Origin: an uncultured Acidobacteriia bacterium
Lineage (GTDB): Bacteria > Acidobacteriota > Terriglobia > Bryobacterales > Bryobacteraceae
Reading direction: 5' to 3'
Length of the DNA stretch: 64,000 nucleotides
NCBI GenBank assembly: GCA_903923395.1
Contig: CAIXXM010000052.1
Span: forward strand, 1-64,000
A model generated the notes under the pieces. It saw nothing but the letters and a program-made list of their open reading frames with translations, ran no database searches and was not told where the DNA came from. Below, one piece after another: positions 28,265 through 64,000 of this stretch; position 1 is the first letter of the stretch; the number at the start of each line of letters is the position of its first letter. Both the position numbers and the translations under genes were made by a program.

Positions 28265-28302
28265 CATTGCAGTGCGATACACTGGCAGCCGGAGATCGCG
28301 TT

Positions 28303-42924: not shown

Positions 42925-42934
42925 TAATGTCCAA

Positions 42935-46231: not shown

Positions 46232-46279
46232 CGGGTTCCTATGCTATCCCATTAGCGATAGCGAAAACTAGCGGCACTC

Positions 46280-47155
46280 TCAGGGAACAACCTGGCGGAC
46301 TTTTACCTCGGTCGCCGTCGGAAAATCCGGCGGGACCGGCAGCGTCACCTTGCCCGTTGCTGCCCACTCGGCACCGCGCTGCAGAGTCACGATGAATCCC
46401 ACATCCTGCATGGCCGCGACATCATGTCCCAGGGTTGTATGGAACACTCTCCCCTTGCCATATTGGATCGACATCAGCATGGGTTCCTGCTCTCCAGTGC
46501 CGCGGTTTTCCGGGTCTGAGAAAGCCGTTCCGAGGATCGTCAGATTCTGCGCTGGACCACATAGATGGTTATATAGTTCATCCGCGGCATGCATCCATAC
46601 CGGCGGCAGACCCTTGGCCACCGGATGTTCCGGATCACGCATGGTTACCGCGAAGGGCTTACGGGCACCGTGGCGTCCGCACGGACCCTCATCCGTATCC
46701 ATCACCTGCCGGCCATCACGCCAGCGCGCCATCGGTGTTCCGGGACCAGACTGCCGGCCACCCCAGCCTCCCACGGCCAGCATCTCCTGATAACCAGTCC
46801 ACTTACGAAATGCGTTGTCCGCAGCGTGGACGGCCACCAACCCGCCGCCCTGTTTCACCCACTTCTCAAACGCGGCGTTCACTTCCGCAGGCCACGCTTC
46901 GCCATTGTAATTCGAAACCACCAGCGAGTAAGTGGAAAAGTCCGGGTGGAAGGTGCTCATGTCACCGCCCTTCGCTGGACTGGTGGCAACGTCGACTTTA
47001 AACTTCCCGCTATCTTCCAGAATCTTCTTAAGCACCGGTGTGGTCTGCTGCCACGCATGATTGTTCTGGCCGTCGATGATCAATGCTTTGGTCTGCGCCC
47101 CGCACGTGGTCGCGACAGCGAGCAGGAGCAGAGCCGTTCCTCTTAGATATCCCAT
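46280..47155 (-). CDS. Exported ThuA-domain protein
   Basis: A 291-residue protein with a signal peptide (MGYLRGTALLLLAVATTCGA). The ThuA fold, a class I glutamine-amidotransferase-like domain, covers the rest: ALIIDGQNNHAWQQTTPVLKKIL, YSLVVSNYNGEAWP, and WVKQGGGLVAVHAADNAF near the nucleophile-elbow position, with GKGRVFHTTLGHD near the end. ThuA members are linked to trehalose, 3-keto-sugar and other glycoside pathways in many soil bacteria. It is the last gene of a five-gene run; its start lies 13 bases inside the upstream sulfatase gene. GGAG stands ten bases before the ATG. Confidence 0.83.
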   Translation of the reverse strand: MGYLRGTALLLLAVATTCGAQTKALIIDGQNNHAWQQTTPVLKKILEDSGKFKVDVATSPAKGGDMSTFHPDFSTYSLVVSNYNGEAWPAEVNAAFEKWVKQGGGLVAVHAADNAFRKWTGYQEMLAVGGWGGRQSGPGTPMARWRDGRQVMDTDEGPCGRHGARKPFAVTMRDPEHPVAKGLPPVWMHAADELYNHLCGPAQNLTILGTAFSDPENRGTGEQEPMLMSIQYGKGRVFHTTLGHDVAAMQDVGFIVTLQRGAEWAATGKVTLPVPPDFPTATEVKVRQVVP

Positions 47156-48540
47156 ATTAGTGATTCTCCATTGAAGGTGGCCTTATGTTTGCGCGGCTTA
47201 AAGATCGGCGGGATCATGTTGGAGTTCCATTCGCTCCATGCCCCCCTTATTTCTTTCAGTACATCGGGCTGCTGTGCGGACAAGTCCTTCGTCTCCCCGG
47301 GGTCGGCGGAGAGATCGTATAACTTGACATGATCCGGACCGCATTCCACCAGCTTCCAGCGGCCCATTACTGCCGCGTGTCCCGTCCCCGCGCGCCAGAA
47401 GAGTACATCGTGGGGCAGGTGAGCATTCTTGCCATTCAGGAACGGTACTAAATCCACACCATCGAACTTGACTCCAGCCGGGAGTGGAATGCCAACTGCT
47501 GCCATGACGGTGGGCAGAATGTCCCGGGAAACGACGGGGTGCGTGTAGACCTTGCCCGCCGGTATCTTCCCCGGCCATCTAACCGCAAAAGGCACTCGGA
47601 CTCCACCTTCATAGTAAGTGAACTTGGAGCCGTTCAAGACGCCATTACTCCCCGCACCTTGCGAAAGCGGCGAGCCATTGTCACTGAGGAAGAAGACCAG
47701 AGTATCCTCCTCCAGTTTGTAAGTACGAAGGCGCTCAAGCACAGCTCCCACTGCGTCATCCATTGCAGATGCCATTGCCGCGAGCATCCGCCGCCGTGGA
47801 TTCTTCACATTCGGGAACCGTTCCCAGTAGCGTTCCACCGTCTGCAGCGGACCGTGTACGGAATTCACCGCCATATACAGAAAGAACGGTTGATTCCGGT
47901 TCTTGTCAATGAACGCACACGCTTCCTCGCGGAAGGCATCGGTAAGGTGACGCGTCTCCTGTATCTCCTCTTTCCCGCGATACATCGGATGATGGCGTTC
48001 CGGCACACCATCCCCATCCAGGACGCGGGCATCCTTCGTGCCGGGGAGCACGTACTCGTCAGCGCCTTCCAGAAAGCCGAAGTACTCATCAAAGCCATGG
48101 TCCTGCGGCATATATCCATCCACTGAACCCAGGTGCCACTTACCCACCATACCGGTGCGATACCCCGCCGGCCTAAGATATTCCGCCAGTGTTGTTTCAG
48201 TCTTCGGCAGCCCGAATACAGCTCCTGTTACCCCGCCCTGGGAGGAGTTGAACTCATGCCCGAAGCGTTGTTGATAGCGGCCAGTGAGGAGCGCTGCCCG
48301 CGAAGGGCTGCAAACCGCGCACGAAACATAGCCCTCCGTGCACTTGGTCCCGCCCGCTACGAAGGAATCGATGTGCGGCGTTGCCACATCTTTACCCCCG
48401 AAACAACCCAGATCGCCAATCCCCAGATCATCCGCCAGAATCACGATGATGTTAGGTTTTCGCGCCGCCGGCCGCCGCTGCTGGCCCGCGAGCGAACCAG
48501 CGGCCAGCACTTGGAGAGCACTGCGCCTTGTGATCCTCAC
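47143..48540 (-). CDS. Formylglycine-dependent sulfatase (second of four)
   Basis: A 465-residue sulfatase with a twin-arginine leader (MRITRRSALQVLAAGSLAG). Cys77 in CSPSRAALLTG is the formylglycine site. Metal and sulfate-binding motifs are PNIIVILADDLGIGDLG, GMVGKWHLG, VFFLSDNGSP and LYMAVNSVHGP. I chose the GTG at 48540 because it overlaps the TGA of the upstream MocA gene as GTGA, and it puts the Arg pair at the N-terminus. A TTG at 48555 would add five residues. It overlaps ThuA downstream. Confidence 0.92.
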   Translation of the reverse strand: MRITRRSALQVLAAGSLAGQQRRPAARKPNIIVILADDLGIGDLGCFGGKDVATPHIDSFVAGGTKCTEGYVSCAVCSPSRAALLTGRYQQRFGHEFNSSQGGVTGAVFGLPKTETTLAEYLRPAGYRTGMVGKWHLGSVDGYMPQDHGFDEYFGFLEGADEYVLPGTKDARVLDGDGVPERHHPMYRGKEEIQETRHLTDAFREEACAFIDKNRNQPFFLYMAVNSVHGPLQTVERYWERFPNVKNPRRRMLAAMASAMDDAVGAVLERLRTYKLEEDTLVFFLSDNGSPLSQGAGSNGVLNGSKFTYYEGGVRVPFAVRWPGKIPAGKVYTHPVVSRDILPTVMAAVGIPLPAGVKFDGVDLVPFLNGKNAHLPHDVLFWRAGTGHAAVMGRWKLVECGPDHVKLYDLSADPGETKDLSAQQPDVLKEIRGAWSEWNSNMIPPIFKPRKHKATFNGESLIWDI

Positions 48541-50024
48541 AGCTTCAGTTCCCAACCCTTCCTGATATTCGGACGCAGATACTTATTGGCCTCCGTATTG
48601 TTGGTGAACTGCATCTTCTTAGCGTCCCACAGGAGTTTAGTATTAGGCACACGCAACGCCACCGCACCCAGAATGAGCCACTCAATGTAGGGAACCGAAA
48701 TGTCGAAATTCGAACAACCCGGCGCACCGCCCTTGACCGCCCGCACCCAATCCTGCTGGTGATTCACGCTGCGCGGCAGTATCTGCGGTGGCAGAACATA
48801 CTCAGCCCAGCGCGCCGCCGGCAGCAGCCAAACGCCTTCGCCTCTTGTTACCGTTGCCATCGCACCCTTGTTACCGACAAAGAGGCTGCCGTTTCCGGGA
48901 CGCTTGGTCCGGTCCACCGGCTGCCCCACCTTGTCGGGACGTTTCGGTGCCGCAGGTGCTGCAAGACGTTCGCCGCGAACACCAGGGTCCGGTGGAGCGT
49001 AGCGGCCGCGCTCCGCAAGATTATTGGGGACAGGGAACAGCGGTTCTTCTGGAGCCATGCCAGCCGGATAAGGTACATCGCCGCGCAGATTCATGTAGAC
49101 ATTGATGGTGACCGGCGGCATGCCCCCGCGCTCTGGAAACTCATACTTCAACTGCGCGCTTTCAGGCCATACGTAGTCGTTCTTGCCGGTAAGTTGTATA
49201 CATTCCACGCTGGTCGGCGGAGCGAGGTGTAGTTGCAGCGCCAGATTGGCGGGTCCAAGGCAATGCACAATCCAGTCGCCCAGTGAACCGCCGCCGCTGA
49301 AATCCTGCCAAGCTCTCCACTTGCTGAACATATTCTCGTTGTATTGCCGCGAGGCCGCCGTCGTCAGCCAAAGATCCCAGTCGAGCGCGCCAGGAATCGG
49401 ATCAACAGGCGGCGCGCCTTCCACCAGAAAGTGGCCACCATAGATACCGCCAGTCCACGCATGGACTTCCCTAACTTCACCGATCGCGCCGGACCACAGG
49501 ATCTCCGCGCAGGTCCGCGTTCCTTCATGTGAGTAACCCTGGTTACCCATCTGGGTGGCCACGTTGTACTTATGTGCCGCATCGCGCAGCAGCCGCGCTT
49601 CCCATACCGTACGCGTTAGCGGCTTCTCGCAATAAACATGCTTGCCTGCCTGCATGGCGGCCAGCGCGATGGGCGTGTGCGAATGGTCGGGCGTGCCGAT
49701 CACGACGCCATCGATATTCTTTTCCTTCTCCAGCAAGACGCGGAAATCCTTGTATTTCGTTGCCTTCGGATACTTCGCAAAGGTCTTCGCCGCGTAGTCC
49801 TGGTGCACATCACACAGGGCCACAATGTTCTCGCTCACCGCCATCGGCGTAAGATCCGCGGCACCGCGGTTCCCGACGCCAATTCCGGCAATGTTCAATT
49901 TGTTCAAGACACTTTTGTAACCAAGCGCCTTCAGGGACTGTGCGCTCCCGAAGCCTCCTGTGGGAACCACTCCGGCAAGAATACTTCCGAAGAAAAAATA
50001 CCGTCTGGAAATGCCGTTGTTCAT
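48537..50024 (-). CDS. Exported Gfo/Idh/MocA-family oxidoreductase
   Basis: A 495-residue NAD(P)-dependent dehydrogenase with a Tat-type leader (ISRRYFFFGSILAGVVPTG). The Rossmann motif is GVGNRG (49-54), the family motif EKP is at 133-135 in YCEKPLTRTVWEA, and TPDHSHTPIA follows the fourth strand. Typical members oxidise or reduce sugar hydroxyls, sometimes as partners of 3-keto-glycoside pathways. AGGAGG lies 7 bases before the ATG. It sits between two sulfatases in a tight operon. The substrate cannot be deduced. Confidence 0.87.
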   Translation of the reverse strand: MNNGISRRYFFFGSILAGVVPTGGFGSAQSLKALGYKSVLNKLNIAGIGVGNRGAADLTPMAVSENIVALCDVHQDYAAKTFAKYPKATKYKDFRVLLEKEKNIDGVVIGTPDHSHTPIALAAMQAGKHVYCEKPLTRTVWEARLLRDAAHKYNVATQMGNQGYSHEGTRTCAEILWSGAIGEVREVHAWTGGIYGGHFLVEGAPPVDPIPGALDWDLWLTTAASRQYNENMFSKWRAWQDFSGGGSLGDWIVHCLGPANLALQLHLAPPTSVECIQLTGKNDYVWPESAQLKYEFPERGGMPPVTINVYMNLRGDVPYPAGMAPEEPLFPVPNNLAERGRYAPPDPGVRGERLAAPAAPKRPDKVGQPVDRTKRPGNGSLFVGNKGAMATVTRGEGVWLLPAARWAEYVLPPQILPRSVNHQQDWVRAVKGGAPGCSNFDISVPYIEWLILGAVALRVPNTKLLWDAKKMQFTNNTEANKYLRPNIRKGWELKL

Positions 50025-50039
50025 CTCGTTGCCTCCTGC

Positions 50040-51500
50040 TTATTTCTTTGTCGAGTAGCCCTGAGCCCGCTGTGTGCTCAGCAGATCCTGCATTTTAGCC
50101 GCGATGTCCCGGTGCTCGTCGATTACGTTCTTCTGTTCCTTGGGATCGTCTTTCACGTTATAGAGCTGCTGCGTCATTTCGCCAGCCCGCGCCTTCGGTA
50201 CTTTGTCAACTGGCTTGGCGGGTTTTCCCTCCACATACTTCCAGTCCCCCTGCCGCATGGCGAAGATACCATCCGCGCTGTGGCTGACCATTGAATCCCG
50301 CACCGGTTGTGGAAGCTTCTTGCCGAGGAAAGTGTGCAGAACGTTCAGACTATCTTCGCCGGACCCTTCCTTCGATACGAATGGCTTCTCCACAACCGCT
50401 GAAATAGTTGCGAGCATGTCCGCCAGGTTGATGGTTTCGTCGCAGGTCGTCCCCGCCGGAGCCTTGCCCGGCCACCGAACCATGAACGGCACGCGGAAGC
50501 CGCCTTGATAGACGCCATGCTTGCCGCCACGCCAATCACCGTTCACATGCAGTCCTGCCCGATAGGCCACGGCTTCCGCCCGGTCTCCCGCGGTCATGAA
50601 CACACCGCCGTTGTCGCTGGTGACGATCAACAGGGTATCCTGCGCCAGTTTCTTGTCATCCAGCGCTTTCAGTACACGGCCCACCGAGTAATCCAAATCA
50701 TGAATCCAGTCGCCATAAGGTCCGGCGGCGCTGCTGCCCTTCGTCCGCTTCGAAGGAGTTACCGGCTCATGCACGGCAACCGGCGTGAAGTACAGGAAGA
50801 AAGGAGTCTGTGGCGATTGTTTCCCGAGCCATTCCACGGCATGGTCCGTAAGAACGTCCATTACTTCATCATCCACACGCTGTGGCGCATCAATTCCCAG
50901 GAAGGGGCGTCCGTAGGGGTTATTACCAACCGGCTTGATCTCCTTCGACCGCAAGCCCGCGACTTGATGGTTCTCCACATAGACGCCGGATGCGTCGCCG
51001 TGATTTTGCGGCACGCCAAAGTGATAGTCAAAGCCTAACTCCAGGGGACCGGGCTTCAATTCCTGCGTGAAGTCCGTCTTGCCGCCCCCGTAACCCAGAT
51101 GCCACTTCCCGATCGCTGCTGTGTTATATCCTTCGCCTTTGAGTACCGAGGAAATCGTGGTTCTCGTCATCTCAATATGAAGCGGCGCATTCGTCGGGAG
51201 GACTTCGAATTTCAGAGAAGTCCGCCAGCAGTAACGGCCGGTCATCAAGGCGTAACGCGAGGGGCTGCATACAGACGATGGCGTATTGGCATCTGTAAAG
51301 CGAATCCCTTCCTTCGCGATCCTGTCCAGATTGGGTGTTCGGATGAGCTTCGGATCCGCCCCATTGCAGTTCAAGCTTCCGTAACCGAAATCATCGGCCA
51401 GGATGATGACGATATTCGGCTTCTTTGTGGCTGCCTGTAGGTTGAGCGCGGGTATCGCGGCTGAAGCGGCAGTCGTGCGGAGAAATTCTCGTCTATTCAT
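50040..51500 (-). CDS. Formylglycine-dependent sulfatase (third of four)
   Basis: A 486-residue sulfatase with an export leader (MNRREFLRTTAASAAIPALN). Cys78 in CSPSRYALMTG is the predicted formylglycine. KPNIVIILADDFGYGSLNCNG, AIGKWHLGYGG and LIVTSDNGGVF provide the metal and sulfate ligands, and FFLYFTPVAVHEPVTP another. The set resembles exo-acting arylsulfatase A-like enzymes. The start is only 4 bases after the stop of the third Oar-like receptor, with no strong ribosome-binding site, which suggests reinitiation. A MocA gene follows after 15 bases. Confidence 0.92.
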   Translation of the reverse strand: MNRREFLRTTAASAAIPALNLQAATKKPNIVIILADDFGYGSLNCNGADPKLIRTPNLDRIAKEGIRFTDANTPSSVCSPSRYALMTGRYCWRTSLKFEVLPTNAPLHIEMTRTTISSVLKGEGYNTAAIGKWHLGYGGGKTDFTQELKPGPLELGFDYHFGVPQNHGDASGVYVENHQVAGLRSKEIKPVGNNPYGRPFLGIDAPQRVDDEVMDVLTDHAVEWLGKQSPQTPFFLYFTPVAVHEPVTPSKRTKGSSAAGPYGDWIHDLDYSVGRVLKALDDKKLAQDTLLIVTSDNGGVFMTAGDRAEAVAYRAGLHVNGDWRGGKHGVYQGGFRVPFMVRWPGKAPAGTTCDETINLADMLATISAVVEKPFVSKEGSGEDSLNVLHTFLGKKLPQPVRDSMVSHSADGIFAMRQGDWKYVEGKPAKPVDKVPKARAGEMTQQLYNVKDDPKEQKNVIDEHRDIAAKMQDLLSTQRAQGYSTKK

Positions 51501-51504
51501 AATC

Positions 51505-54500
51505 TTAAAAGGAAAGCCTTGCTCCCAGTTGAATGATGCGCCCGGGGGACGCTGTGGTAAGTGTAGTCACCTGTCCGAAATTGACTGACGTCAAACTCCC
51601 GTTCGGCGGGCCGTAAGGTGGAGAATTCAAGGTGTTGAAGAAATCGCCCCGTATTTGGATGCGCAGCCGTTCCCGGAGGGGAAAGATCCGTGAGAGACTC
51701 GCATTCAAATTACTCAGCCCGGGTGCGGTCAGATTCGGCTCACTGCGCGAACCATTCCCCAGCGTGTAGAGCGCCGCGGGCGCGAAGGCTGCGGTATTGA
51801 ACCAGTGATCGAGCGTTTGCTGGCCCGCGGGAAGATTTGGATTTTGCAGCCGCTGCACTGAGCCTGTTACCCCGGGCAGTCTGGTGTTGGAGGGTCCTGT
51901 AATTACCACCGGAATGCCTGTGCCCAGCGTCAATACCCCGCTCAACTGCCAGCCTCCTGTGATCTTGCCGGCGATTCCACGACTGAGGAATCGCTGTCCG
52001 CCACCAAAAGGAAGTGCCCAAACCCAGCTGGACGAAAGGGTCTGCGTGCGGTTCCAATCCGTCAGGGAACGTGATGCCTTCAAGTTATATGGATTGACAA
52101 GGCCGCTCTGCGGGGCGAAGTTCTGCGGACCATCATCAATCCCCTTGCTGAACGTATACGCGAAGTTCACCGTGACGCCCTGGTAAGAACGCTGCAGCCG
52201 CAAAGAGCCTGCATGGTAAATCGAATCTCCTATCGAAGCGCCGGAGTTGGTGATATCCAGATACTGCGGGAACGGCCGCAACAATTGCGCCGCCGTCACC
52301 GTCTTCGCACTCAGCGTGCCTGTGGACACCTGGCCATAGTAGGGATTTGTCACTAATGCATCGAGCCCCGTTCCTAAAGATAAGTTCGAAGGGTTTACCG
52401 CGTTCGCATTAATCGCCATCCAAAAGTGTTCCGCGCGGTTGCCGGCATAAGCCAGTTCCAGCAGCAGATTCACTGGCAGCCGCCGCTGTATGCTGAAGTT
52501 CCATTGGATGTTCAGCGGGGCGACCGTATTGTGGAACCTCGTGGTGAGCGCGCTGCCTACTTCATAAGCAGGAGGTGTCACCAGTCCGGTGACGAATGGC
52601 GTGGACAGGGAAGCCCCCGCAGGGGGAGTGTTCGGCGCTGCCGGCGCTGTCCCTAAATACACCGGATCGCTCACATAATAGCCATCTCCGAGTGCTGTTG
52701 GCGCCGCGCTGATCGCCCCATTGCCGGGGAAGTAAAAGATCCCGCCGCCTCCACGGATCACCGTCGTCGCATTCGGGCTCCATGCGAAGCCCAGCCGTGG
52801 CGCGAAGTGCCCCCCAACGCTCGCCTGCTGCGATGAATACGGCGCACCCGCATTCAGGAACTGTAACTTACCCGGCAGATGGGTGACGGGGTCCGTCGCT
52901 GCGGGGTCAAAATATGCCAGGCGCGAATACCGCTCTTTCCATGGCGTCGAATCATCCCAGCGCAAGCCTACATTCAACGTTAGATTGCGCCGGATCTTCC
53001 AATCATCCTGCACATACCAGGCGACCGATTTCTGGATGATGGACAAAGTCGGGTCAAACGTGAAGCTCCCGCCCGTTGGTGCACCTAACAGGAAAGTCGC
53101 GAAGCCATCACCGCCAGTCACACTTGCCGTGGCCGGGTTGGGACCCTGCGTGTAGGCCCGGCTGAAGTTATAACTACCGGACGGATATTGGTATTTGAAG
53201 TAATTCAGATATCCGATCGACAGATCGAAGCCAGTCTTCACAATGTGGCTGCCGCGAATCCAGGTGACGTGCGCCAGCGCGCCCTCGTTTTGCTGTGTAT
53301 TATTCGCGTAGGTTGTATTGGCCACACCCAGCGTGCTCTCATCCGTGATGTTGAAATACGGAAACAGGAAAGCGCCTGCCTGTGCCTGCAGAGACTGCGG
53401 AAACCCCAGCGAACTCATCTCAAACCCCTTGCTGGCCGGAGTTCCCGGAATTAACACACGAACGAACGTGGCCCGGAATTCGCCGACGAGAGCCGGACTG
53501 AAAATGACCGTATCGCTAAGGCTGGTCGAATGGTCATTCTGCCCCTGGTTCGCTGCCGCATTGCCTTTCTCAGAAGGAAAGGCGATGTTCACTCCGGGCG
53601 AAAGCGTTTTGGAGTTCTCCCTCCCGTGAGTAACAAACAAGCGGTTCTTGCTGTTCAACTGGTGGTCGATCCGATAGAGCATCCGCACCGTGCCGAGCTG
53701 CACCGTTTCGCTCTGGGCAAAATCGCTGCCCACAGCGGTGCGGTTGGGCAGCGGGTAATAGGTCATCACATTCTGCGCGATCGAATTGATCCGCGACATA
53801 GGAATGACGTTGCCCGCAAACAAGCTGCGGATATACGTCCCCGCCAACTGCGGATTCGCCACCGTCGTTGCCGGATCATAGATCTGCAGTAACTGCCCAC
53901 CCGCATTACGCGTTTGCGAGAAATCTCCACCGCGTTCGAGCGTGGTCGGCACCTCACCACTGATGCTGTTGGGCGTGCGCTGCTGCACCCCTTCCACAGT
54001 GGCGAAGAAGAACGTCTTGTCACGGCCATGGTAGACCTTGGGCAGATACACAGGACCTCCCGCCGAGCCGCCGAATTCGTTATGCCGGAACTCAGTCTTG
54101 CCCAGGCCGTTCCGGTTCGCCAGCCAGCCGTTTGCGTTCAACTTGTCATTCTCAAAGTATTCGTAAAGGCTGCCGTGATACACATTGGTGCCGGCCCGCG
54201 TGGTCGAAGTCAGAACGCCGCCTCCAGTTCGCCCATACTCAGCGGAGAAGTTATTGGTGATCACCTTGACTTCCCCCACTGCTTCCAGCGGCGGCGTGAA
54301 AGCGGCACCACTGCCAATCGCATTCCGGACCTCCGCCCCATCCATCAACAGTTCCATCGAAGACGTCCGTCCGCCATTCACGGTAGCGGTAATCGGATTG
54401 GCCGCATTGTTTCCCTGCACAACGCCCGGAGCCAGCAGCACCAGAGTAAATGGATTGCGCCCAAGCACAGGCAACTCCACCATCTGTTTGCCGGAAATCA

Positions 54501-54918
54501 CAGATCCAAGGGTTGAACTCTGCTGCTCCAGTTCCACGGAACTGGCGGTCACGGTCACCTGCTGTGTCTGTGCGCCGGGAGACAACGTCGAGTTGAAAGT
54601 CGCTGTGATGCCAACCATGACTTCGATTCCATTCACCACCTCCGTGGCGAAGCCGGGTTTCGCCACCGTGAGCCGGTACTGGCCCGGCGACAGATAAGAG
54701 AAGTTGTAAGATCCGGTGTTCGTCGTGGTGGTGTTGCGATGCAAGTCGGTGGAGAGCTCTATTAACGTCACCTGGGCACCCGGAACTACTGCGCCAGTGG
54801 AATCCAATATGGTTCCGGTTATTCCCCCCTGGTCGACCTGACCCAATAGCGGCAATGCCGCCCAGAACAACCCTTGCAGAACGGCAGCGAACATGGCTTT
54901 GGATGGACAATGCTTCAT
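51505..54918 (-). CDS. Oar-like TonB-dependent outer-membrane receptor (third of three)
   Basis: A 1137-residue protein with a signal peptide (MKHCPSKAMFAAVLQGLFWA and on to LLGQ). The regulatory-like domain runs from GGITGTILDSTGAVVPGAQV to GFATEVVNGIEV. The plug has LPVLGRNPFTLVLLAPGVV and TTRAGTNVYHGSLYEYFEN, and the barrel ends ARLSF. An ATG at 54948 could also serve, with GGGAAGG almost touching it; the open frame goes on to 55254 but that stretch is an overlap with the upstream sulfatase and not signal-like. It heads an operon of sulfatase, MocA, sulfatase and ThuA, and has a striking palindrome upstream. Confidence 0.88.
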   Translation of the reverse strand: MKHCPSKAMFAAVLQGLFWAALPLLGQVDQGGITGTILDSTGAVVPGAQVTLIELSTDLHRNTTTTNTGSYNFSYLSPGQYRLTVAKPGFATEVVNGIEVMVGITATFNSTLSPGAQTQQVTVTASSVELEQQSSTLGSVISGKQMVELPVLGRNPFTLVLLAPGVVQGNNAANPITATVNGGRTSSMELLMDGAEVRNAIGSGAAFTPPLEAVGEVKVITNNFSAEYGRTGGGVLTSTTRAGTNVYHGSLYEYFENDKLNANGWLANRNGLGKTEFRHNEFGGSAGGPVYLPKVYHGRDKTFFFATVEGVQQRTPNSISGEVPTTLERGGDFSQTRNAGGQLLQIYDPATTVANPQLAGTYIRSLFAGNVIPMSRINSIAQNVMTYYPLPNRTAVGSDFAQSETVQLGTVRMLYRIDHQLNSKNRLFVTHGRENSKTLSPGVNIAFPSEKGNAAANQGQNDHSTSLSDTVIFSPALVGEFRATFVRVLIPGTPASKGFEMSSLGFPQSLQAQAGAFLFPYFNITDESTLGVANTTYANNTQQNEGALAHVTWIRGSHIVKTGFDLSIGYLNYFKYQYPSGSYNFSRAYTQGPNPATASVTGGDGFATFLLGAPTGGSFTFDPTLSIIQKSVAWYVQDDWKIRRNLTLNVGLRWDDSTPWKERYSRLAYFDPAATDPVTHLPGKLQFLNAGAPYSSQQASVGGHFAPRLGFAWSPNATTVIRGGGGIFYFPGNGAISAAPTALGDGYYVSDPVYLGTAPAAPNTPPAGASLSTPFVTGLVTPPAYEVGSALTTRFHNTVAPLNIQWNFSIQRRLPVNLLLELAYAGNRAEHFWMAINANAVNPSNLSLGTGLDALVTNPYYGQVSTGTLSAKTVTAAQLLRPFPQYLDITNSGASIGDSIYHAGSLRLQRSYQGVTVNFAYTFSKGIDDGPQNFAPQSGLVNPYNLKASRSLTDWNRTQTLSSSWVWALPFGGGQRFLSRGIAGKITGGWQLSGVLTLGTGIPVVITGPSNTRLPGVTGSVQRLQNPNLPAGQQTLDHWFNTAAFAPAALYTLGNGSRSEPNLTAPGLSNLNASLSRIFPLRERLRIQIRGDFFNTLNSPPYGPPNGSLTSVNFGQVTTLTTASPGRIIQLGARLSF

Positions 54919-54965
54919 ACGTGGCACCGGGTTCCAAGCTATCGGCATTCCTTCCCGCCGGACAA

Positions 54966-54986
54966 GGGAATTCACAGTGAACTCCC
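54966..54986. promoter_or_regulatory. Palindromic operator-like element before the third receptor
   Basis: The half-sites GGGAATTCAC and GTGAACTCCC flank a central A; nine of ten arm positions match. The core TTCACAGTGAA is a perfect palindrome. It lies in the 82 bases between the sulfatase stop (55001) and the receptor ATG (54918). The wider sequence (54962-54995) is repeated with changes upstream of the sulfatase at 56699-56733. Confidence 0.55.
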
Positions 54987-55000
54987 GGTAAGTGCGGCTG

Positions 55001-56662
55001 TTACAGCGTCCTGACTTCCACGAATTTCGGTCCAACAGCGGACTTTCCGGCGGTGATTGTCCCCCGCAATTGCCCGGGGCCAACGCGCAGTTCGACAGCT
55101 TCAAACCGGCACTCCTGCGCACCCTGGGGAACCGCCTTGCTCTTGTCTGCCTCCCCGAGTTGGAAACGAACTTCAGAGTCGGCGGGAAGGGGATCAAACT
55201 GCAAGGTGATTTCATATTTCCCGGCCTTCTTGACATCCACTTCCCACCAGCCATTGGTGTTCCGCCCCTGCGCCGCCACCCGCCAGTTCTGCCGCGTCAG
55301 AACCACCGGATTTTCATGCTCCGTTCCAAGGTAGATCCGGGGTGGAATGAAGTGTCTGTCCGCAGAAACCGACGCGAACCAATCCAAATAGGCCTTCCGC
55401 AGATCCGCAACGACCTCCGGATGCGAGTCGGCGATGTCGTGACTCTCCGCCGGGTCTTTTTCCATGTCGTAGAGCTCTTTGCCGTTGATCAACTTGTAGC
55501 GCTGTGTCCGCACGGCGGAATCCCGGAACGCCTCTGGTTGATCGCCTCGATGCCATTGCGTGAAGATCGTCCGGTCCGGCCAATTCTTCGCGGTCCCATC
55601 CGCCAGACTCCACAGACTCTTGCCGTCAATCTTGAGCCCTTCCGGTTTCTTGACTCCGCAGACGTCCAGAATGGTCGGCATGATGTCGATCTGCGCGGCG
55701 ATCCGGTCCGTCGTCCGCGGCTTGAGGCGTCCGGGCCATCGCACGAAGAAGGGAACACGAATCCCTCCCTGGTAGGGTGTTCCTTTGATCGCCCGCATCC
55801 CGGCGTTGTACCGCACCGTCGGACCCACCGGGCCGTTGTCCGTCATAAAGATGAACATCGTGTCCCGCTCCACGCCCAGATCCCGCAGCTTCGTGGTCAA
55901 CTTGCCCAGGTTCCAGTCAATGTTCGCGATCATGCCGTAAACCTTGGCGACGTCATCAGCCAGCCCCATTTCGGCGAAAGGCCGGGACCACTTTTCGTCC
56001 ACCATCAAGGGAGAATGTGGCGCGTTGGTCGCGATGTAGGCAAAGAACGGCTTGCTGCCGCCCCGTTCGATCCACTCCATCGCCGCCCCGAAGAAAACAT
56101 CGGTGCAATATCCCGTGTACTTCTTCTGGACCCCGTTGTGTTGCAGAATCGGATCGAAGTAGCTGCTGCCGGGAGGGTCGGAAGGCTGCCCGAGACCTCC
56201 ACCCTTGATCACCAGCGATTCCTGGAAGCCCTGGTCGCACGACCGCATCGGGTAGTTGTCGCCCAGGTGCCACTTGCCGAAAATGCTAGTCCGGTAGCCG
56301 TTGCTCCCCAGAATCTCCGCTACCGTTACCTCATCCGGATACATCATTGAGCGGCCCAGGAACGTATCCACAATTCCCGTGCGGTAGTTGTACCGGCCTG
56401 TCAGCAAGCTGGACCGAGTCGGTGAGCAGACTGGACAGACCTGGAACTGCGTGAATTGGACGCCTTCTTTCCCCACCGAATCCATATTGGGCGTCTTCAG
56501 GTGAGGGTTGCCGTGCAGGGACAAATCGCCGTAGCCCTGGTCGTCAGTCAAAACGAGAACGACGTTCGGGCGCTTGCCCCCCTGCCCACCCTGAGGGCGT
56601 TGGGCGTAAGAAAACCCTGCGGTTGCTCCGGCAAGAATTGCGGTAAATTGGCGGCGGTTCAT
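55001..56662 (-). CDS. Formylglycine-dependent sulfatase with C-terminal beta-domain (fourth of four)
   Basis: A 553-residue sulfatase with export leader (MNRRQFTAILAGATAGFSYA). Cys79 in CSPTRSSLLTG is the formylglycine site; RPNVVLVLTDDQGYGDLSLHG, SIFGKWHLGDN and FIFMTDNGPVG hold the other ligands. The last 110 residues (about 440-553), with WWEVDVKKAGKYEITLQFDP, look like a carbohydrate-binding beta sandwich, which the other three sulfatases lack. The start at 56662 gives a proper leader; the frame is open further upstream but only as a shadow of the divergent gene. It is transcribed away from the regulator at 56819 and towards the third receptor. Confidence 0.92.
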   Translation of the reverse strand: MNRRQFTAILAGATAGFSYAQRPQGGQGGKRPNVVLVLTDDQGYGDLSLHGNPHLKTPNMDSVGKEGVQFTQFQVCPVCSPTRSSLLTGRYNYRTGIVDTFLGRSMMYPDEVTVAEILGSNGYRTSIFGKWHLGDNYPMRSCDQGFQESLVIKGGGLGQPSDPPGSSYFDPILQHNGVQKKYTGYCTDVFFGAAMEWIERGGSKPFFAYIATNAPHSPLMVDEKWSRPFAEMGLADDVAKVYGMIANIDWNLGKLTTKLRDLGVERDTMFIFMTDNGPVGPTVRYNAGMRAIKGTPYQGGIRVPFFVRWPGRLKPRTTDRIAAQIDIMPTILDVCGVKKPEGLKIDGKSLWSLADGTAKNWPDRTIFTQWHRGDQPEAFRDSAVRTQRYKLINGKELYDMEKDPAESHDIADSHPEVVADLRKAYLDWFASVSADRHFIPPRIYLGTEHENPVVLTRQNWRVAAQGRNTNGWWEVDVKKAGKYEITLQFDPLPADSEVRFQLGEADKSKAVPQGAQECRFEAVELRVGPGQLRGTITAGKSAVGPKFVEVRTL

Positions 56663-56698
56663 ATGGAACCTACAAGCTATCGATTCAGGCGCTCCAGA

Positions 56699-56733
56699 AC
56701 AAGGGAGTTCACCGTAAGTTTCCGGTAAGTTGC
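56699..56733. promoter_or_regulatory. Second copy of the receptor/sulfatase upstream element
   Basis: ACAAGGGAGTTCACCGT (56699-56715) and CCGGTAAGTTGC (56722-56733) match the element at 54962-54995 at about 27 of 34 positions, including both ends. The copy is less palindromic. It is in the 156-base divergent gap between the sulfatase and the membrane regulator, 37 bases from the sulfatase ATG. Confidence 0.5.
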
Positions 56734-56818
56734 TGCCCGCGGAGTGCTTTGCCGCCCACTCCGCAGGAGTGATAGAGTTGCGATTGGCGCAATATGCAGG
56801 GCGCAAAGGAGTCCGATA

Positions 56819-58120
56819 GTGCAGGCGGGAGTTGTCTCTGGAGCAAGCATTTCGCTGGAAGAGAAGCGTGAAGCTGTCGCGCACGTCCTCCGCAGCCGCG
56901 CGTTGCAACGCGCACCGAAGCTGCGCGAATTCCTGCGGCTGATCTGCGAACGCGCCCTGTCCGACGGAGATGCCGAACCGCTCCGCGAGCAGGAGATCGG
57001 CACGCTGGTCTACCAAAGGTCCGCCGGTTACAACCCTTCGGAAGACAACATCGTCCGCGTGGAAGCCCGCAACCTGCGCAAGAAACTCGCCGATTTCTTT
57101 GCGGATGAGGGCAAGGAACTTCCCCTTGTCATCACAATTCCCAGAGGTGGTTACGTTCCCCTGTTCGAATACCGTGTGGAGCTTGAACCGGATCTGGAGC
57201 CAGCAGCCCCGGCGGTCGAACTCGAGCCCGTGCCCGTTGCCCGGCCCCGGTTCCGCTTCGCCACCCCCACCGTCATTGCGTTGCTGACCCTGCTTTGCCT
57301 CTGGCTCTGGTGGCAGAATTCCCGCCTGCGGGCTGGCACTCCTTCTGTTGCTTCGGCCCCTGCCATCTGGTCCGCACTGTTTGACGAACACCACAACACG
57401 TATCTCGTGCTGGCGGACTCCGGTTTCGTGGTGGCGCAGGATGTTTTACAGAAGCGGTTCACGCTGGATAACTACCTGAAGCGCAATCATGGTGCGATTT
57501 TTCAGGCTACTGATCCGGCGAATGAGCGGGAACGTGCCGCAGAGATTGTTGGCCTGCCGCAGTTTACGAGCGTGACCGGTGCGCGCTTCGCCGGGAATAT
57601 CTTCGCGCTGCCCGGTGTTCCGAAAAGCCGTCTGAGCATCCGTTACGCGCGCGAGATCGAACCCCGTGACCTGAAGAGTAACCACGTCATTCTGCTGGGC
57701 AATGCCAGATCGAACCCCTGGGTGGAATTGTTCTTTCAGAAGCTGAATTTCCGGCACGAATTTGATTTCAAGGAATCCCGCGCACGGATCCGGAATCAAT
57801 CTCCGCTTCCCGGTGAATCTGCTGTCTACCTTGCTGGCGCACCGGGTGACGATTCCAATGATCTCTACTCCACCATCGCGTTTCTGCCCAACCTGGATGG
57901 CACCGGCAACGTTCTGATTGTTTCGGGCACTGGCTCCGTGGGTACGGAGGCCGCCGGTGATCTCCTATTCAATCCGAACCTTGCCAGCCAGATGGTCCGC
58001 CAACTCCATCTGCAGAAGGACGGCCACTTGCGGTACTTCGAAGTGCTGGTTCGCTCGTCACGCTTGGGCTCCACCTCACAGGGCTTGCAGGTCGTAGCGC
58101 ACCGCATGATCGGGGAGTGA
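56819..58120 (+). CDS. Membrane-anchored putative transcriptional regulator
   Basis: A 433-residue protein. I chose the GTG at 56819 because AAAGGAG stands seven bases before it. The N-terminal domain (about 13-118) has RAPKLREFLRLICERAL, EIGTLVYQRSAGYNPSEDNIVRVEARNLRKKL and ITIPRGGYVPLF, as in a family of membrane-linked proteins of Rhizobia and Acidobacteriota usually described as CadC-like or adenylate-cyclase-like regulators. A Pro/Glu linker, one transmembrane helix (148-166) and an outer domain of about 265 residues follow. That topology fits a one-component sensor. DNA binding is inferred, not shown. It is divergent from the fourth sulfatase. Confidence 0.65.
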   Translation: MQAGVVSGASISLEEKREAVAHVLRSRALQRAPKLREFLRLICERALSDGDAEPLREQEIGTLVYQRSAGYNPSEDNIVRVEARNLRKKLADFFADEGKELPLVITIPRGGYVPLFEYRVELEPDLEPAAPAVELEPVPVARPRFRFATPTVIALLTLLCLWLWWQNSRLRAGTPSVASAPAIWSALFDEHHNTYLVLADSGFVVAQDVLQKRFTLDNYLKRNHGAIFQATDPANERERAAEIVGLPQFTSVTGARFAGNIFALPGVPKSRLSIRYAREIEPRDLKSNHVILLGNARSNPWVELFFQKLNFRHEFDFKESRARIRNQSPLPGESAVYLAGAPGDDSNDLYSTIAFLPNLDGTGNVLIVSGTGSVGTEAAGDLLFNPNLASQMVRQLHLQKDGHLRYFEVLVRSSRLGSTSQGLQVVAHRMIGE

Positions 58121-58168
58121 TCGCGTCCCGTACGGCTCAGTTGGGCTTGTTCGCACGAAGATCGGCCG

Positions 58169-58441
58169 CCCGGGTTCGGGTCAGAAGACGCAGGAACGAT
58201 CAAGTACTGTCGTCCACCAGCTTCATACATGGCGGGGCTTCCTTCGGAACCGGCCGGCAGCGCAGTCTCCCAGAGAACCTGTCCAGTTTCTTCATCAAGC
58301 GCGCGCAGAATACCGTCGCTCGCGGCAACAAAGATCAAGCCTGTCGCAGTCACAACCATCCCGTGATGTTCGGCCATGAACGCACCCGTATCACGCGCAC
58401 CCTCAGCGGCAGCGGGCTTTCCCGCTGGCTCCAGCCCGGCT
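58169..58441 (-). pseudogene. Remnant duplicate of the PQQ-dehydrogenase 3' part
   Basis: Bases 58169-58415 match 58607-58853 inside the intact gene with 4 differences in 247 (about 98% identity). The following 58413-58441 resembles 59127-59150 instead, so the duplicate is joined across a deletion of about 270 bases. In the minus frame it reads GLEPAGKP joined to AAAEGARDTGAFMAEHHGM, and its downstream end leaves the gene at DPNPGG and continues into unrelated sequence. It has no start or full domain and cannot make a working enzyme. This covers most of the 395-base gap 58121-58515; the rest is palindromic repeats. Confidence 0.85.
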
Positions 58442-58445
58442 TGTT

Positions 58446-58466
58446 CGCACGCCATTCTGGCGTGCG
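58446..58466. repeat. Copy 2 of the dispersed palindromic repeat
   Basis: CGCACGCCA, loop TTC, TGGCGTGCG: a perfect 9-bp stem. It is the first of two tandem copies, 40 bases apart start to start, between the dehydrogenase remnant and the intact gene. Confidence 0.75.
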
Positions 58467-58485
58467 TGTTCTTGTACCCGGAAAA

Positions 58486-58506
58486 CGCACGCCATTCTGG
58501 CGCACG
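58486..58506. repeat. Copy 3 of the dispersed palindromic repeat
   Basis: CGCACGCCA, loop TTC, TGGCGCACG: the same element with two changes in the right arm, which weaken the outer pairs. It ends 10 bases from the stop codon of the intact PQQ-dehydrogenase gene, so it may also help to end that transcript. Confidence 0.7.
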
Positions 58507-58515
58507 CAGATCGGC

Positions 58516-60756
58516 TTAATTCCGCGGCAACGCGTAGACCACATACCCTTTCGGCAGGTCGGGCCGGATTGGTTCCCGCGGCTTGGTGCGCAGCGGGTGG
58601 CCGCCACCCGGGTTCGGGTCAGAAGACGCAGGAACGATCAAGTACTGTCGTCCACCAGCTTCATACATGGCGGGGCTTCCTTCGGAACCGGCCGGCAGCA
58701 CGGTCTCCCAGAGAACCTGTCCGGTTTCTTCATCAAGCGCGCGCAGAATACCGTCACTCGCGGCAACAAAGATCAAGCCTGTCGCAGTCACAACCATCCC
58801 GTGATGTTCGGCCATGAACGCACCCGTATCACGCGCACCCTCAGCGGCAGCGGCGGCATCCTGACCCAGCGGTACCTTCCACTTGATCGTCCCGCTGTTC
58901 AGGTCAAAGGCCACCACCTGAGACCATGGCGGACCAATCACATAGGGCTGATCCGGATACAAACCCCAATTGGTGTAATAACGGTCGCGTGGCGCTTTCA
59001 CTCCCGCCGGATACGGAGGTCCGCCGAGCGGCGTGTATTGGTTGCCACTGCCAGAGGGAATATTGCGTCCGCCGGGCGCTCCGCCGGTGGCCACCACGGG
59101 TCCGCCCTTCGCAGTTAGCACCACGGGTTTCCCCGCTGGCTCCAGCCCGCTGAGATAGTCATACATGCTCTTCACCGCCGCATCATCCAGGCTGGGGAAG
59201 GCGGGCATCTCACTCTTCCCGCTGCGTACGGTGGCGCGAAACGAATCGAGTGTCACCATTCGTCCCACGCCAGCGAGCGGCGGCGGTCCGGCGCCGAACC
59301 GCATCCCGTTTTCGCCATGACATACCGCGCAACGTGCCGCGTAAACCGAAGCTCCCGAAGTACCTTCGGCGGCAGGCCGCCCCAGCGGATCTTCCAGGCT
59401 CAACTTATAAACCGTAGGCCAATCCTGCGTGGTCAGATAGACCAGACCGCGACCTGGATTCGCCGCACCTGTTCCCCAATTCGACCCTCCCCGCGCACCG
59501 GGTAAGGCAATGGTTTCCTTGACATCCGGAGGCGTGAAGATGCCTTCATTCCGCATCGCCGAGATACGTGCCTTCCAAGCCGACCGCTCCTCCGGTGTAA
59601 GTATCCAGGGGTTTACATCCTCCGCCGTGATCTTCTGGCGCGCAAACGGCGGTGGTGCCGTGGGAAATGGTTGTGTTGGCCAGGCCTGCTCGCCGGGCAT
59701 CAGACTTGCCGGCACCGGACGTTCCTCAATCGGCCAGAGTGGCTTGCCGGTAACACGGTCGAACACATACAGAAAGCCCTGCTTCGAAGATTGAGATACA
59801 GCGTCCACCAACTTGCCTTCATGGCGCACCGTAACCAACTGCGGTGCAGCAGCCGCATCATAGTCCCACAGATCGTGATGCACCATCTGGAAATGCCACA
59901 AGCGCTTCCCTGTCCGTGCGTCCAGGGCCAGCAGGCAATTCGCGAAGAGATTCGAACCAATCCGGTCGGCGCCGTAGTAATCATAAGTGGGCGAACCTGT
60001 CGGAAAATAAGCGATTCCCCGCTTCTCATCCACAGTGATCTCGCCCCAGGTGTTTGTGCCACCGGAATATTTCCAGGCATCCTTCGGCCAAGTTTCATAG
60101 CCGGGTTCGCCGGGGTGTGGAATCGTGTGGAAACTCCAAACCAGCTTGCCCGTAATCACATCGAAAGCACGTATGTCTCCCGGCGCGGAAAGATATGCTT
60201 CCCCCGGCGTGGACCCCAGCAGGATCAAATTCTCAAAGATACGCCCGGGCGTGTCGGTTTGGATGCGGATCATCGTCTTCGGGTCACGCCCCAGACCCTC
60301 CCGCAGATTCACTGCGCCACGCTTGCCGAACGTAAGAATCGACTTCCCTGTGCGCGCGTCAATCTCTTCCAGATAACTGTTGATGGTAAAGATCAACCGG
60401 CGGTCTTTGCGGTCTTTACTCTCCCAATAGGCGATGCCGCGCGTGCTAATCCCGGAGAGATTTTCATGAATCCAGATCTCCTTGCCCGTCTCCGCTTGCA
60501 GCGCCACCAGGGAACTGTTTCTCGCCAGTAAGTAGACCACCCGATCCACAATGATGGGATTGAACAAGTAAGTGTGACCATCACCCGCGGGATAGTTCCA
60601 CGCCACCTGCAACTGCTTCACATTGGACTTGTTGATCTGATTCAGCGCGACAAAGTGCGACGAATCCGCACCGCCACCGTAGTTCGACCAAGCCTTGTGG
60701 TCCTGCTGCGCCGCGGCCAGTGACGCCACCAGAAAGAGACACGCAGCCCGCATCAT
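58516..60756 (-). CDS. PQQ-dependent dehydrogenase with inserted cytochrome c domain
   Basis: A 746-residue secreted quinoprotein. The signal peptide (MMRAACLFLVASLAAAQ) is followed by the eight-bladed propeller, whose Trp-containing repeats are visible as LVALQAETGKEIWIHE, IRAFDVITGKLVWSFH and LLALDARTGKRLWHFQ. A class I cytochrome c is inserted at about 465-540: CAVCH (476-480) binds haem and Met517 (EMPAFPS) is the likely sixth ligand. The last blades follow it. The closest types are membrane glucose dehydrogenase-like and sorbose or alcohol-type enzymes. It should oxidise a sugar or alcohol in the periplasm and pass electrons on. Its ATG overlaps the stop of the beta-helix gene (60753-60756). 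Confidence 0.9.
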   Translation of the reverse strand: MMRAACLFLVASLAAAQQDHKAWSNYGGGADSSHFVALNQINKSNVKQLQVAWNYPAGDGHTYLFNPIIVDRVVYLLARNSSLVALQAETGKEIWIHENLSGISTRGIAYWESKDRKDRRLIFTINSYLEEIDARTGKSILTFGKRGAVNLREGLGRDPKTMIRIQTDTPGRIFENLILLGSTPGEAYLSAPGDIRAFDVITGKLVWSFHTIPHPGEPGYETWPKDAWKYSGGTNTWGEITVDEKRGIAYFPTGSPTYDYYGADRIGSNLFANCLLALDARTGKRLWHFQMVHHDLWDYDAAAAPQLVTVRHEGKLVDAVSQSSKQGFLYVFDRVTGKPLWPIEERPVPASLMPGEQAWPTQPFPTAPPPFARQKITAEDVNPWILTPEERSAWKARISAMRNEGIFTPPDVKETIALPGARGGSNWGTGAANPGRGLVYLTTQDWPTVYKLSLEDPLGRPAAEGTSGASVYAARCAVCHGENGMRFGAGPPPLAGVGRMVTLDSFRATVRSGKSEMPAFPSLDDAAVKSMYDYLSGLEPAGKPVVLTAKGGPVVATGGAPGGRNIPSGSGNQYTPLGGPPYPAGVKAPRDRYYTNWGLYPDQPYVIGPPWSQVVAFDLNSGTIKWKVPLGQDAAAAAEGARDTGAFMAEHHGMVVTATGLIFVAASDGILRALDEETGQVLWETVLPAGSEGSPAMYEAGGRQYLIVPASSDPNPGGGHPLRTKPREPIRPDLPKGYVVYALPRN

Positions 60757-62925: not shown

Positions 62926-63402
62926 ATGAGCCGCCCCGCGCTGCGCATTCCGGTTTCAAAGAGGGATCAGAAGGCACTGGAAGAGTTCCTGAGCGGCGGA
63001 GTTCAGCCGGTTCGCGCTGTGCTCCGTGCTCTGGCTCTCTTACAACTGGCCAAAGGTATCAGCGCCCCTCGCCTCGCCGAGTTCGTCTCTCTGACTCCAC
63101 AGGCAATCCGCAAGGTGGGGCATCGGTATGTCGAAGGTGGGCTGGAGCGCGCCCTGTATGAGAAAGAACGGCCGGGAGCCGCCGCGTTGTTGGAGGACAG
63201 CCAGAAGCAGCGGATCATAGCAATGGTCTGCGCCGGCGCGCCCGAAGGGCACGCTCGATGGACAGTGCGCCTGGTGGCGGAACAGGCCGTAAAAAGGCGG
63301 CTGGTACCTAGAGTCGGACGTGAGACTATTCGGGTTCTGCTTCTCAGCCACGACCTCAAACCGTGGCGGGAAAAAAATGTGGTGCATCCCGGAACTCACT
63401 GA
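62926..63402 (+). CDS. IS630-family transposase, N-terminal reading frame
   Basis: 158 residues forming the DNA-binding half. The helix-turn-helix region has RAVLRALALLQLAKGISAPRLAEFVSLTPQAIRKVGHRYVEGG (about 30-72), and a second helical set ends with RETIRVLLLSHDLKPWREK. The frame leaves the conserved sequence after a run of seven A (63371-63377) and stops at 63402. Six A would join it to the second frame and give KPWREKMWCIPEL as expected. Either a programmed slip or a mutation separates the two parts. Confidence 0.9.
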   Translation: MSRPALRIPVSKRDQKALEEFLSGGVQPVRAVLRALALLQLAKGISAPRLAEFVSLTPQAIRKVGHRYVEGGLERALYEKERPGAAALLEDSQKQRIIAMVCAGAPEGHARWTVRLVAEQAVKRRLVPRVGRETIRVLLLSHDLKPWREKNVVHPGTH

Positions 63403-64000
63403 AGAGTACATCTCGAAGATGGAGGATGTCCTCGAAGTGTATGAAAAACCTTACGATCCCAACGAACCGGTAGTCTGCCTCGACGAGAAGCCGGTTACCC
63501 TGCATGCCGAAGTTCGGCCTCCGTCTCCCGCCGTACCGGGCCGGGAAGCGCGGCGCGACAGCGAATACCAGCGGCGCGGAACCGCCAATGTTTTCTGCGC
63601 GGTAGAGCCGAAAGCCGGTCGCCACTTCACCTTCGCGACGCCGGATCGTTCGGCGGTTGAGTTTGCAAGAGTCATTTTCAAGCTGGCGATCGAGTATCCG
63701 GAAGCAACCACCATCCATCTCGTGCTCGACAATCTGAACATCCACAGACGCAAATCGCTCACGGATCTACTCGGTGAAGACGTCGGCGGCGAAGTCTGGG
63801 ACCGGTTCACCGTACACCATACGCCGACTCACGGAAGCTGGCTGAATCAGGCGGAAATCGAAATCGGATTGCTCTCGCGGCAGTGCTTCGGAAGCCGCCG
63901 CATCCCGGACCTGAAGACTCTGCGCCGAGAGGTCCGCGCCTGGAACCGGGGCACGAACCGCCGCCAAATCAAAATCAACTGGAAGTTTGACCGCAAGGAG
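63377..64000 (+). CDS. IS630-family transposase, catalytic reading frame, partial
   Basis: 208 residues to the end of the window, without a stop. The DDE catalytic acids are visible: Asp in VVCLDEKPVTLHAE, Asp in IHLVLDNLNIH, and Glu in HGSWLNQAEIEIGLLSRQC. These cut and join the transposon ends. The frame is shifted by one base from the N-terminal part and starts with ATG within the A-run. On its own it lacks the DNA-binding half, so it works only if the two frames are joined. Confidence 0.88.
   Translation, partial: MWCIPELTEEYISKMEDVLEVYEKPYDPNEPVVCLDEKPVTLHAEVRPPSPAVPGREARRDSEYQRRGTANVFCAVEPKAGRHFTFATPDRSAVEFARVIFKLAIEYPEATTIHLVLDNLNIHRRKSLTDLLGEDVGGEVWDRFTVHHTPTHGSWLNQAEIEIGLLSRQCFGSRRIPDLKTLRREVRAWNRGTNRRQIKINWKFDRKE

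Follow-up and report, generated by a model that had tools for sequence, protein, structure and literature searches.

Tandem 11-bp units beside a predicted membrane regulator as putative operators of receptor and sulfatase genes in an uncultured Acidobacteriia bacterium

The window, a stretch of 64,000 nucleotides from an uncultured Acidobacteriia bacterium (contig CAIXXM010000052.1), contains a series of minus-strand genes for sulfatases, TonB-dependent receptors, a Gfo/Idh oxidoreductase and a ThuA-like protein, and a divergently oriented gene for a regulator, here called P0001. Two copies of a repeat, E1 and E2, are found between these genes. E1 is placed between the stop of a sulfatase gene and the start of the gene for an Oar-like TonB-dependent receptor, E2 between the start of this sulfatase gene and the regulator. 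Coordinates of all features are listed in Table 1. On the far side of the regulator, a nearly identical duplication of about 247 bp (58169-58415 and 58607-58853, 438 bp apart) is located at the 3' end of a PQQ dehydrogenase-like gene (58516-60756, minus strand), and a plus-strand ORF of 333 residues (58117-59118) is probably a by-product. A helix-turn-helix ORF at 62926-63745 (PF13565, PF13551) represents, together with what follows it, a putative insertion-sequence transposase.

Table 1. Repeat copies, promoter-like hexamers and genes of the locus, in window coordinates
Feature	Position	Strand	Remarks
E1	54967-54999	-	three 11-bp units: 54989-54999 (degenerate), 54978-54988, 54967-54977
E2	56704-56736	-	three 11-bp units: 56726-56736, 56715-56725, 56704-56714
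-35-like TTGTCC, receptor promoter	54960-54965	-	directly after E1; read from sequence
-10-like TAGCTT	54936-54941	-	18 bp from E1 -35-like hexamer
-35-like TTGTTC, sulfatase promoter	56697-56702	-	directly after E2
-10-like TAGCTT	56674-56679	-	17 bp from E2 -35-like hexamer
Divergent regulator P0001	56819-58120	+	winged helix ~13-118, hydrophobic helix 149-171, periplasmic domain 181-433
Sulfatase gene	55001-56662	-	PF00884, E 3.9e-56; predicted E2 target
Oar-like TonB-dependent receptor gene	51505-54918	-	PF25183, E 2.1e-199; PF13620, E 2.6e-19; predicted E1 target
Same-strand genes after receptor	41398-51500	-	Pfam matches; may share a transcript
Sulfatase	50040-51500	-	Pfam
Gfo/Idh oxidoreductase	48537-50024	-	Pfam
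Sulfatase	47143-48555	-	Pfam
ThuA-like	46280-47155	-	Pfam
Second receptor	42935-46231	-	Pfam
Sulfatase	41398-42957	-	Pfam

The two stretches had originally been predicted to agree at about 27 of 34 positions. Direct comparison of 54962-54995 with 56699-56732 gives 26 of 34, and 27 matches are found in the best 34-nt window of the two 120-nt upstream regions. This number was reached by none of 3000 dinucleotide-shuffled pairs, the largest value among them being 23. The pair is also the first direct repeat in the output of a repeat finder (81% over 32 nt), and the predicted distances to minus-strand starts hold as well: 44 nt for E1 (start at 54918) and 37 nt for E2 (start at 56662). Read on the minus strand, both copies consist of tandem 11-bp units with CTTG, a -35-like sequence, at their end. 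E1 reads AGCCGCACTTA-CCGGGAGTTCA-CTGTGAATTCC-CTTGTCC, and E2 reads GCAGCAACTTA-CCGGAAACTTA-CGGTGAACTCC-CTTGTTC; downstream, CGATAGCTTG is common to both. The repeat itself is real and very probably serves as a regulatory site. Its core is not mainly a palindrome: 11-bp units follow one another in tandem and connect to the -35-like CTTG.

Between E2 and the start of the regulator, a perfect 8-bp inverted repeat, GCGGAGTG-N10-CACTCCGC, is found at 56739-56764. Another motif of the locus, AAATTTCAGA, had been taken as a hint that two regulons may exist here. With at most one mismatch it has 7 matches in the window versus 2.84 +/- 1.64 in shuffled sequence, a count reached in 3 of 100 shuffles; the idea of two regulons gains a little from this.

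Relatives of P0001 (E up to 1e-20) occur in 99 of 150 genomes of the window's family. Redundancy and length reduction of their upstream regions left 38 of 39 training, 48 of 60 held-out and 9 of 15 named regions. Motif discovery was performed on the 280-nt upstream regions of the 38 non-redundant training genes, including nine own-genome paralogs and P0001 itself, by expectation-maximisation from 150 random windows per motif width. The procedure converges on the motif of E1 and E2. The five best restarts agree completely with each other at both width 20 and width 26, the latter giving CCGtGAAtTCACcGTGAATTCACTTG. E1, which was never part of the training of this position weight matrix (PWM), has the best PWM score in the window (31.4 bits), and E2, a member of the training set, has the second (27.6 bits). 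The next score, 15.2 bits, belongs to 30142-30167, inside an ORF (28267-30270) and about 112 nt before an ORF at 30279.

Among the held-out regions, 21 of 48 exceed the 99% threshold of their own shuffles and 24 of 48 the 95% threshold, while the same 99% threshold is exceeded by none of 171 control windows placed 700-1980 nt upstream. The 27 of 48 held-out relatives with no site over threshold speak against the motif as operator of this family. Over 11.8 bits, the 86 genes have 48 sites, of which 27 belong to the 38 training and 21 to the 48 held-out genes. These sites are distributed over 28 of 33 genera, and 43 of the 48 point to the divergent gene rather than to the regulator. Between genera, the 26-mers share a mean identity of 0.597 versus 0.26-0.28 for their flanks, the 26-mers being chosen by score and the flanks not. 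Conservation in related genomes, on which the original prediction had made itself depend, is thus observed: the motif recurs across genera. Of nine relatives outside Bryobacteraceae, two exceed their own low threshold (6.9 bits) and none exceeds 10.4 bits, and separate expectation-maximisation on these nine yields no such tandem. As for the divergent neighbours of family regulators, 55 of 77 match CarboxypepD_reg, 54 of 77 a receptor barrel and 4 of 77 a sulfatase domain. These 77 were taken from 90 divergent ORFs of at least 100 residues, the others lying at loci L014, L016, L059 and L134 and at nine named loci, and some of the neighbours are wrong because they were chosen by a longest-ORF rule.

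The product of P0001 comprises 433 residues. It matches no Pfam family at E 0.001 and no NCBIfam model near its cut-off. In a set of P0001 and 21 relatives, 16 of the 22 proteins have a match to PF00486 (OmpR/PhoB winged helix) with E no higher than 1, the best being 4.1e-6; P0001 itself stays below the Pfam cut-off (15.9 versus 26.2 bits), which counts against the assignment. In a full-length AlphaFold2 model (pLDDT 81, pTM 0.57) a helical winged domain comes first, then a helix spanning 149-171 and finally the C-terminal domain; the first domain modelled alone reaches pLDDT 88 and pTM 0.81. The best 15 structural rows for the winged-domain model are OmpR/PhoB-type effector domains with moderate Z scores (6.0-7.5), PhoB on its pho box among them; ScpB is next with 5.9. 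Foldseek gave no match under E 0.001 for either model, another point against. Two features by which CadC/ToxR-like proteins are recognised are present: an N-terminal winged-helix domain of OmpR/PhoB type, and an apparent single membrane helix between the DNA-binding and periplasmic domains, the latter read from a hydrophobic stretch in the sequence and from helix 149-171 in the model. For the periplasmic domain (residues 181-433, 57359-58117) the best structural row is BcsB 533-724 (Z 11.9, rmsd 3.2, 166 aligned), further rows being an archaeal S-layer domain (Z 9.0) and, at Z 6.8-8.7, domains from enzymes of families GH67, GH84 and GH115. Neither CadC nor ToxR appears among the structural rows for this domain, an absence that excludes nothing. 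Our guess from the model is that the domain may sense carbohydrate; a shared fold shows no function.

P0001 is most likely a CadC/ToxR-like one-protein membrane activator of the local receptor-sulfatase cluster. It had already been proposed as the binder by virtue of its place beside E2, and co-occurrence of the motif with its family across genomes suggests that it is indeed the best candidate. In our interpretation, E1 and E2 are probably operators of P0001, which as an inner-membrane one-component factor would activate the promoters of the receptor and sulfatase genes.

Each copy is followed by a predicted sigma-70-type -35/-10 pair with a spacing within 16-18 bp, TTG being part of the motif; the consensus match of the hexamers is poor. 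Coordinates of the -35-like hexamer behind E1 were counted by hand from the unit 54967-54977, because the automatic locator matched another copy of TTGTCC at 54905. Of 43 family sites, 10 have TANNNT at a distance of exactly 17 bp from the TTGNNN hexamer, versus 0-2 at other offsets (2 at 18 bp). Averaged over sites, TATAAT is matched best one step off, at offset 18 instead of 20, which counts against this arrangement. From this family footprint, the element looks like an operator joined to the promoter of the divergent gene.

With the putative operator directly adjoining the -35-like element, polymerase could also be kept off by a protein bound there. P0001 might thus act as a repressor that occupies the -35 region until a signal releases it, and the location of the units between two divergent promoters would agree with such a role. 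However, the units stop just upstream of TTG and leave the -10 element uncovered. Units that end upstream of the -35 without covering the -10 are the layout of PhoB-type activators, and a poor hexamer match is presumably common for activator-dependent promoters. We infer activation rather than repression, the latter being unlikely.

Genomes were scanned with a sequence-only profile, R1, built from 27 sites of other genomes and from no own-genome site. These sites were picked from 49 candidates with the training motif, in which E2 and other own-genome regulators were included, so the rank of E2 is not entirely independent; E1 itself never served for training, though it resembles E2. Over the own 6.15-Mb genome, E1 ranks first (E 2.7e-5) and E2 second, and the genome-wide E of only 0.12 for E2 alone counts against it. 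Two further results weigh against operators of this family: a site over 11.8 bits is present at 3 of 10 own-genome family regulators (P0001 and those at C60 and C104), all of them training members, and the sites at C104 and C60 are both missed by R1 at E up to 10. Of the 30 best-scoring own-genome receptor genes, 2 have a site over 11.8 bits in the stretch of at most 640 nt around the start, one of them being E1; the site is therefore not a general receptor promoter.

Several other places in the own genome may be mentioned. The operator-like site at C104:33711-33736 (L010, L033) lies beside a third family regulator. A second family regulator (C52:69620-70855, L031) is found just beyond the window. 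A sulfatase gene comes after it, and between the two is a weak candidate for an operator-like site at C52:69524 (E 1.97). At C51:62156-62189 (L018), an 11-bp direct repeat, AGTTCAC-TGTG-AGTTCAC, occurs together with a TTGACC hexamer. This site precedes a 3-keto-disaccharide hydrolase gene by 55 nt, possibly a further target, though a weak candidate (E 0.96). R1 matches at C24, C89:122051, C124, C148, C30 and C57 are inside ORFs and were set aside as chance.

Twelve other genomes, chosen by us among those with relatives, were scanned for matches at E up to 0.025. The 16 rows obtained fall on 15 places, and 12 of the 15 are just upstream of a family regulator; seven of these 12 are training sites and three more are near-duplicates dropped earlier. 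Two of the other three places precede receptor genes 4-5 kb from a regulator, one being the second site of the orthologous locus described below and the other a site about 45 nt before a receptor gene roughly 5 kb from a regulator. The third is unexplained. Over the 15 named loci, R1 matches only L078 (twice) and L079, whose counterparts L041 and L043 are training sites. Matches in genome G104 were rejected, as they are placed in repeated coding sequence. A near-perfect palindrome, CAAGTGAATTCTCGGAGAATTCACTTG, was seen in an intergenic region at L173 2244-2270 (G102:C416); no family regulator is among the matches listed for this contig.

The closest relative of P0001 (57-59% identity) is found at the orthologous locus, L078, in an uncultured Acidobacteriia MAG; locus L172 appears to belong to the same contig. 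The order at L078 is regulator, first site, Gfo/Idh gene, sulfatase, ThuA-like gene, second site, receptor and sulfatase, with 45 nt from the CTTG of the second site to the receptor start. The same kinds of genes are present in the window, differently ordered; one site is located at the regulator, and the CTTG of the other stands 44 nt before the receptor start. Judged from these sequences, two sites kept through rearrangement would be hard to explain without function.

The sites might also be bound by a different transcription factor, perhaps a global nutrient regulator, to which the membrane regulator is a mere neighbour. Such a factor would account for the absence of a site at 27 of 48 held-out and 7 of 10 own-genome family regulators. 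It also agrees with the weak coupling of recognition helix and site, which correlate (r 0.19, p 0.006) not clearly above the control flank (r 0.09, p 0.013); since this control correlates too, the co-variation, not clearly better than ancestry would give, is not used as support for P0001. Nevertheless, strong profile matches in the 13 scanned genomes concentrate at the P0001 regulator family, and among the 29 other receptor genes tested just one has a candidate site. Binding by another factor is, in our view, distinctly unlikely.

The original prediction saw the core of the element in a 21-nt palindrome. In E1 this stands (18 of 21 positions, 9 of 10 pairs), whereas E2 keeps it weakly (12 of 21). 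An operator of this kind would suit a head-to-head dimer, either of a soluble regulator or of the membrane regulator itself, as proposed for CadC. In 36 family sites, dyad symmetry is raised at positions 12, 17.5 and 23 of the 33-nt frame (0.42, 0.47 and 0.61), the last being the centre originally proposed. There it amounts to 0.605 of pairs, on average as strong as the identity at lag 11, which counts against the tandem. The symmetry is raised because the unit GNGAATTCNC is itself nearly palindromic, and for the same reason sequence alone cannot fix how the protein sits on DNA. Among the 36 sites, which were selected for their motif score, identity reaches 0.527 at lag 11 versus 0.18-0.29 at lags 5-10 and 12-17, and an 11-bp repeat pitch is that of OmpR/PhoB-type operators.

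Co-variation was compared in 41 sites, and relatedness of sites could feed both tests. Direct units co-vary within sites (0.616 versus 0.581 between sites; 28 of 5000 permutations as high) but inverted halves do not (0.620 versus 0.607; 965 of 5000 as high). This co-variation favours direct repeats over inverted ones. A dyad that is kept in both copies and co-varies within sites, as expected of a palindromic operator, was not found in E1, E2 and the family sites. The palindrome was set aside as core, and we regard a palindromic operator as very improbable.

A degenerate palindrome pattern run over the genome gives 22 rows, its reversed-pattern control 2. Without those of E1 and E2, 18 rows are left, which fall on 15 places; 14 of these places are inside a predicted ORF and C51:62174 is the sole one outside. 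A second pattern, for the tandem, gives 10 rows (control 3), including C104:33711 beside another family regulator. Finally, a duplicated promoter segment without operator role, suggested by the CGATAGCTTG that E1 and E2 also have in common downstream, is hardly credible, as the motif recurs between genera with 0.597 identity against 0.26-0.28 in the flanks, even if its sites are score-selected.

Activation by P0001 through E1 and E2 could proceed as follows. The cytoplasmic OmpR/PhoB-type winged helix would bind head-to-tail on the 11-bp units, each one helical turn, beside the -35-like element, and bound P0001 would bring in or stabilise RNA polymerase at a promoter whose spacer measures 17-18 bp. 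Expression of the sulfatase gene would be driven from E2, which could act on the promoter of the regulator as well, and E1 would provide a second, co-controlled promoter for the downstream receptor gene. The periplasmic domain may sense a product of the substrate as inducer, and genes for uptake and breakdown of a sulfated food molecule would be switched on through both sites. A wider generalisation is offered tentatively. Bryobacteraceae and near relatives may possess a large family of one-protein membrane regulators, and many of these would have a TonB-dependent receptor cluster of their own as partner. Their periplasmic domain, similar in fold to carbohydrate enzymes, would sense glycan products, and the receptor promoter would be switched directly via an 11-bp tandem operator. 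This would be a Sus-like system for nutrient sensing made from different parts.

Acidobacteria abound in soil, and dozens of such receptors can be present in them; the own genome has at least 65 OMP_b-brl_4 matches. With a predicted operator and a candidate binding domain, uncharacterised regulators become testable regulator-target pairs, and the locus offers a case of how a factor tethered to the membrane may reach promoters that are encoded next to it. Among the top-ranked entries of a literature search, which included few subscription papers, none dealt with the P0001 family, its operator or the regulation of Oar-like receptors in Acidobacteria. A paper on Solibacter paralogs mentions, in its available text, winged-helix response regulators and does not touch the P0001 system there (PMC3174227).

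Three known systems invite comparison. In Bacteroidota Sus/PUL loci, SusR-type membrane regulators likewise stand beside genes for outer-membrane receptors and glycan-active enzymes. The DNA-binding and sensor domains of SusR differ from those of P0001, however, and the receptor in the window is of the Oar-like OMP_b-brl_4 type. With response regulators of the OmpR/PhoB family, the P0001 system shares the winged helix and direct repeats of 11-bp pitch. In available excerpts, M. tuberculosis PhoP is described as a tandem dimer on 7-bp direct repeats with a 4-bp spacer, with tighter binding when three or four repeats are present (PMC4832192). Unlike these proteins, P0001 has no receiver domain that we could find, and its DNA-binding domain is N-terminal and apparently membrane-tethered.

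In domain order, P0001 resembles CadC/ToxR-like transmembrane regulators (TTRs): a winged helix of OmpR/PhoB type at the N-terminus is followed by one apparent membrane helix and, at the C-terminus, a periplasmic domain. In work from 2013, Goss and colleagues are said to have found that ToxR recognises a direct repeat. The domain order given for CadC and ToxR in the accessible parts of two papers (PMC5430869, PMC10269533) is that of P0001, and according to the latter, Acidobacteriae average more TTRs per genome than other prokaryotes. For CadC, the accessible part of the former describes a proposed motif, 5'-TTAxxxxT-3', arranged head-to-head at -153 to -113 of its promoter (PMC5430869). P0001 differs from these regulators in two respects: its periplasmic model best resembles other folds, and its candidate operator consists of GNGAATTCNC-like units in tandem next to the -35.
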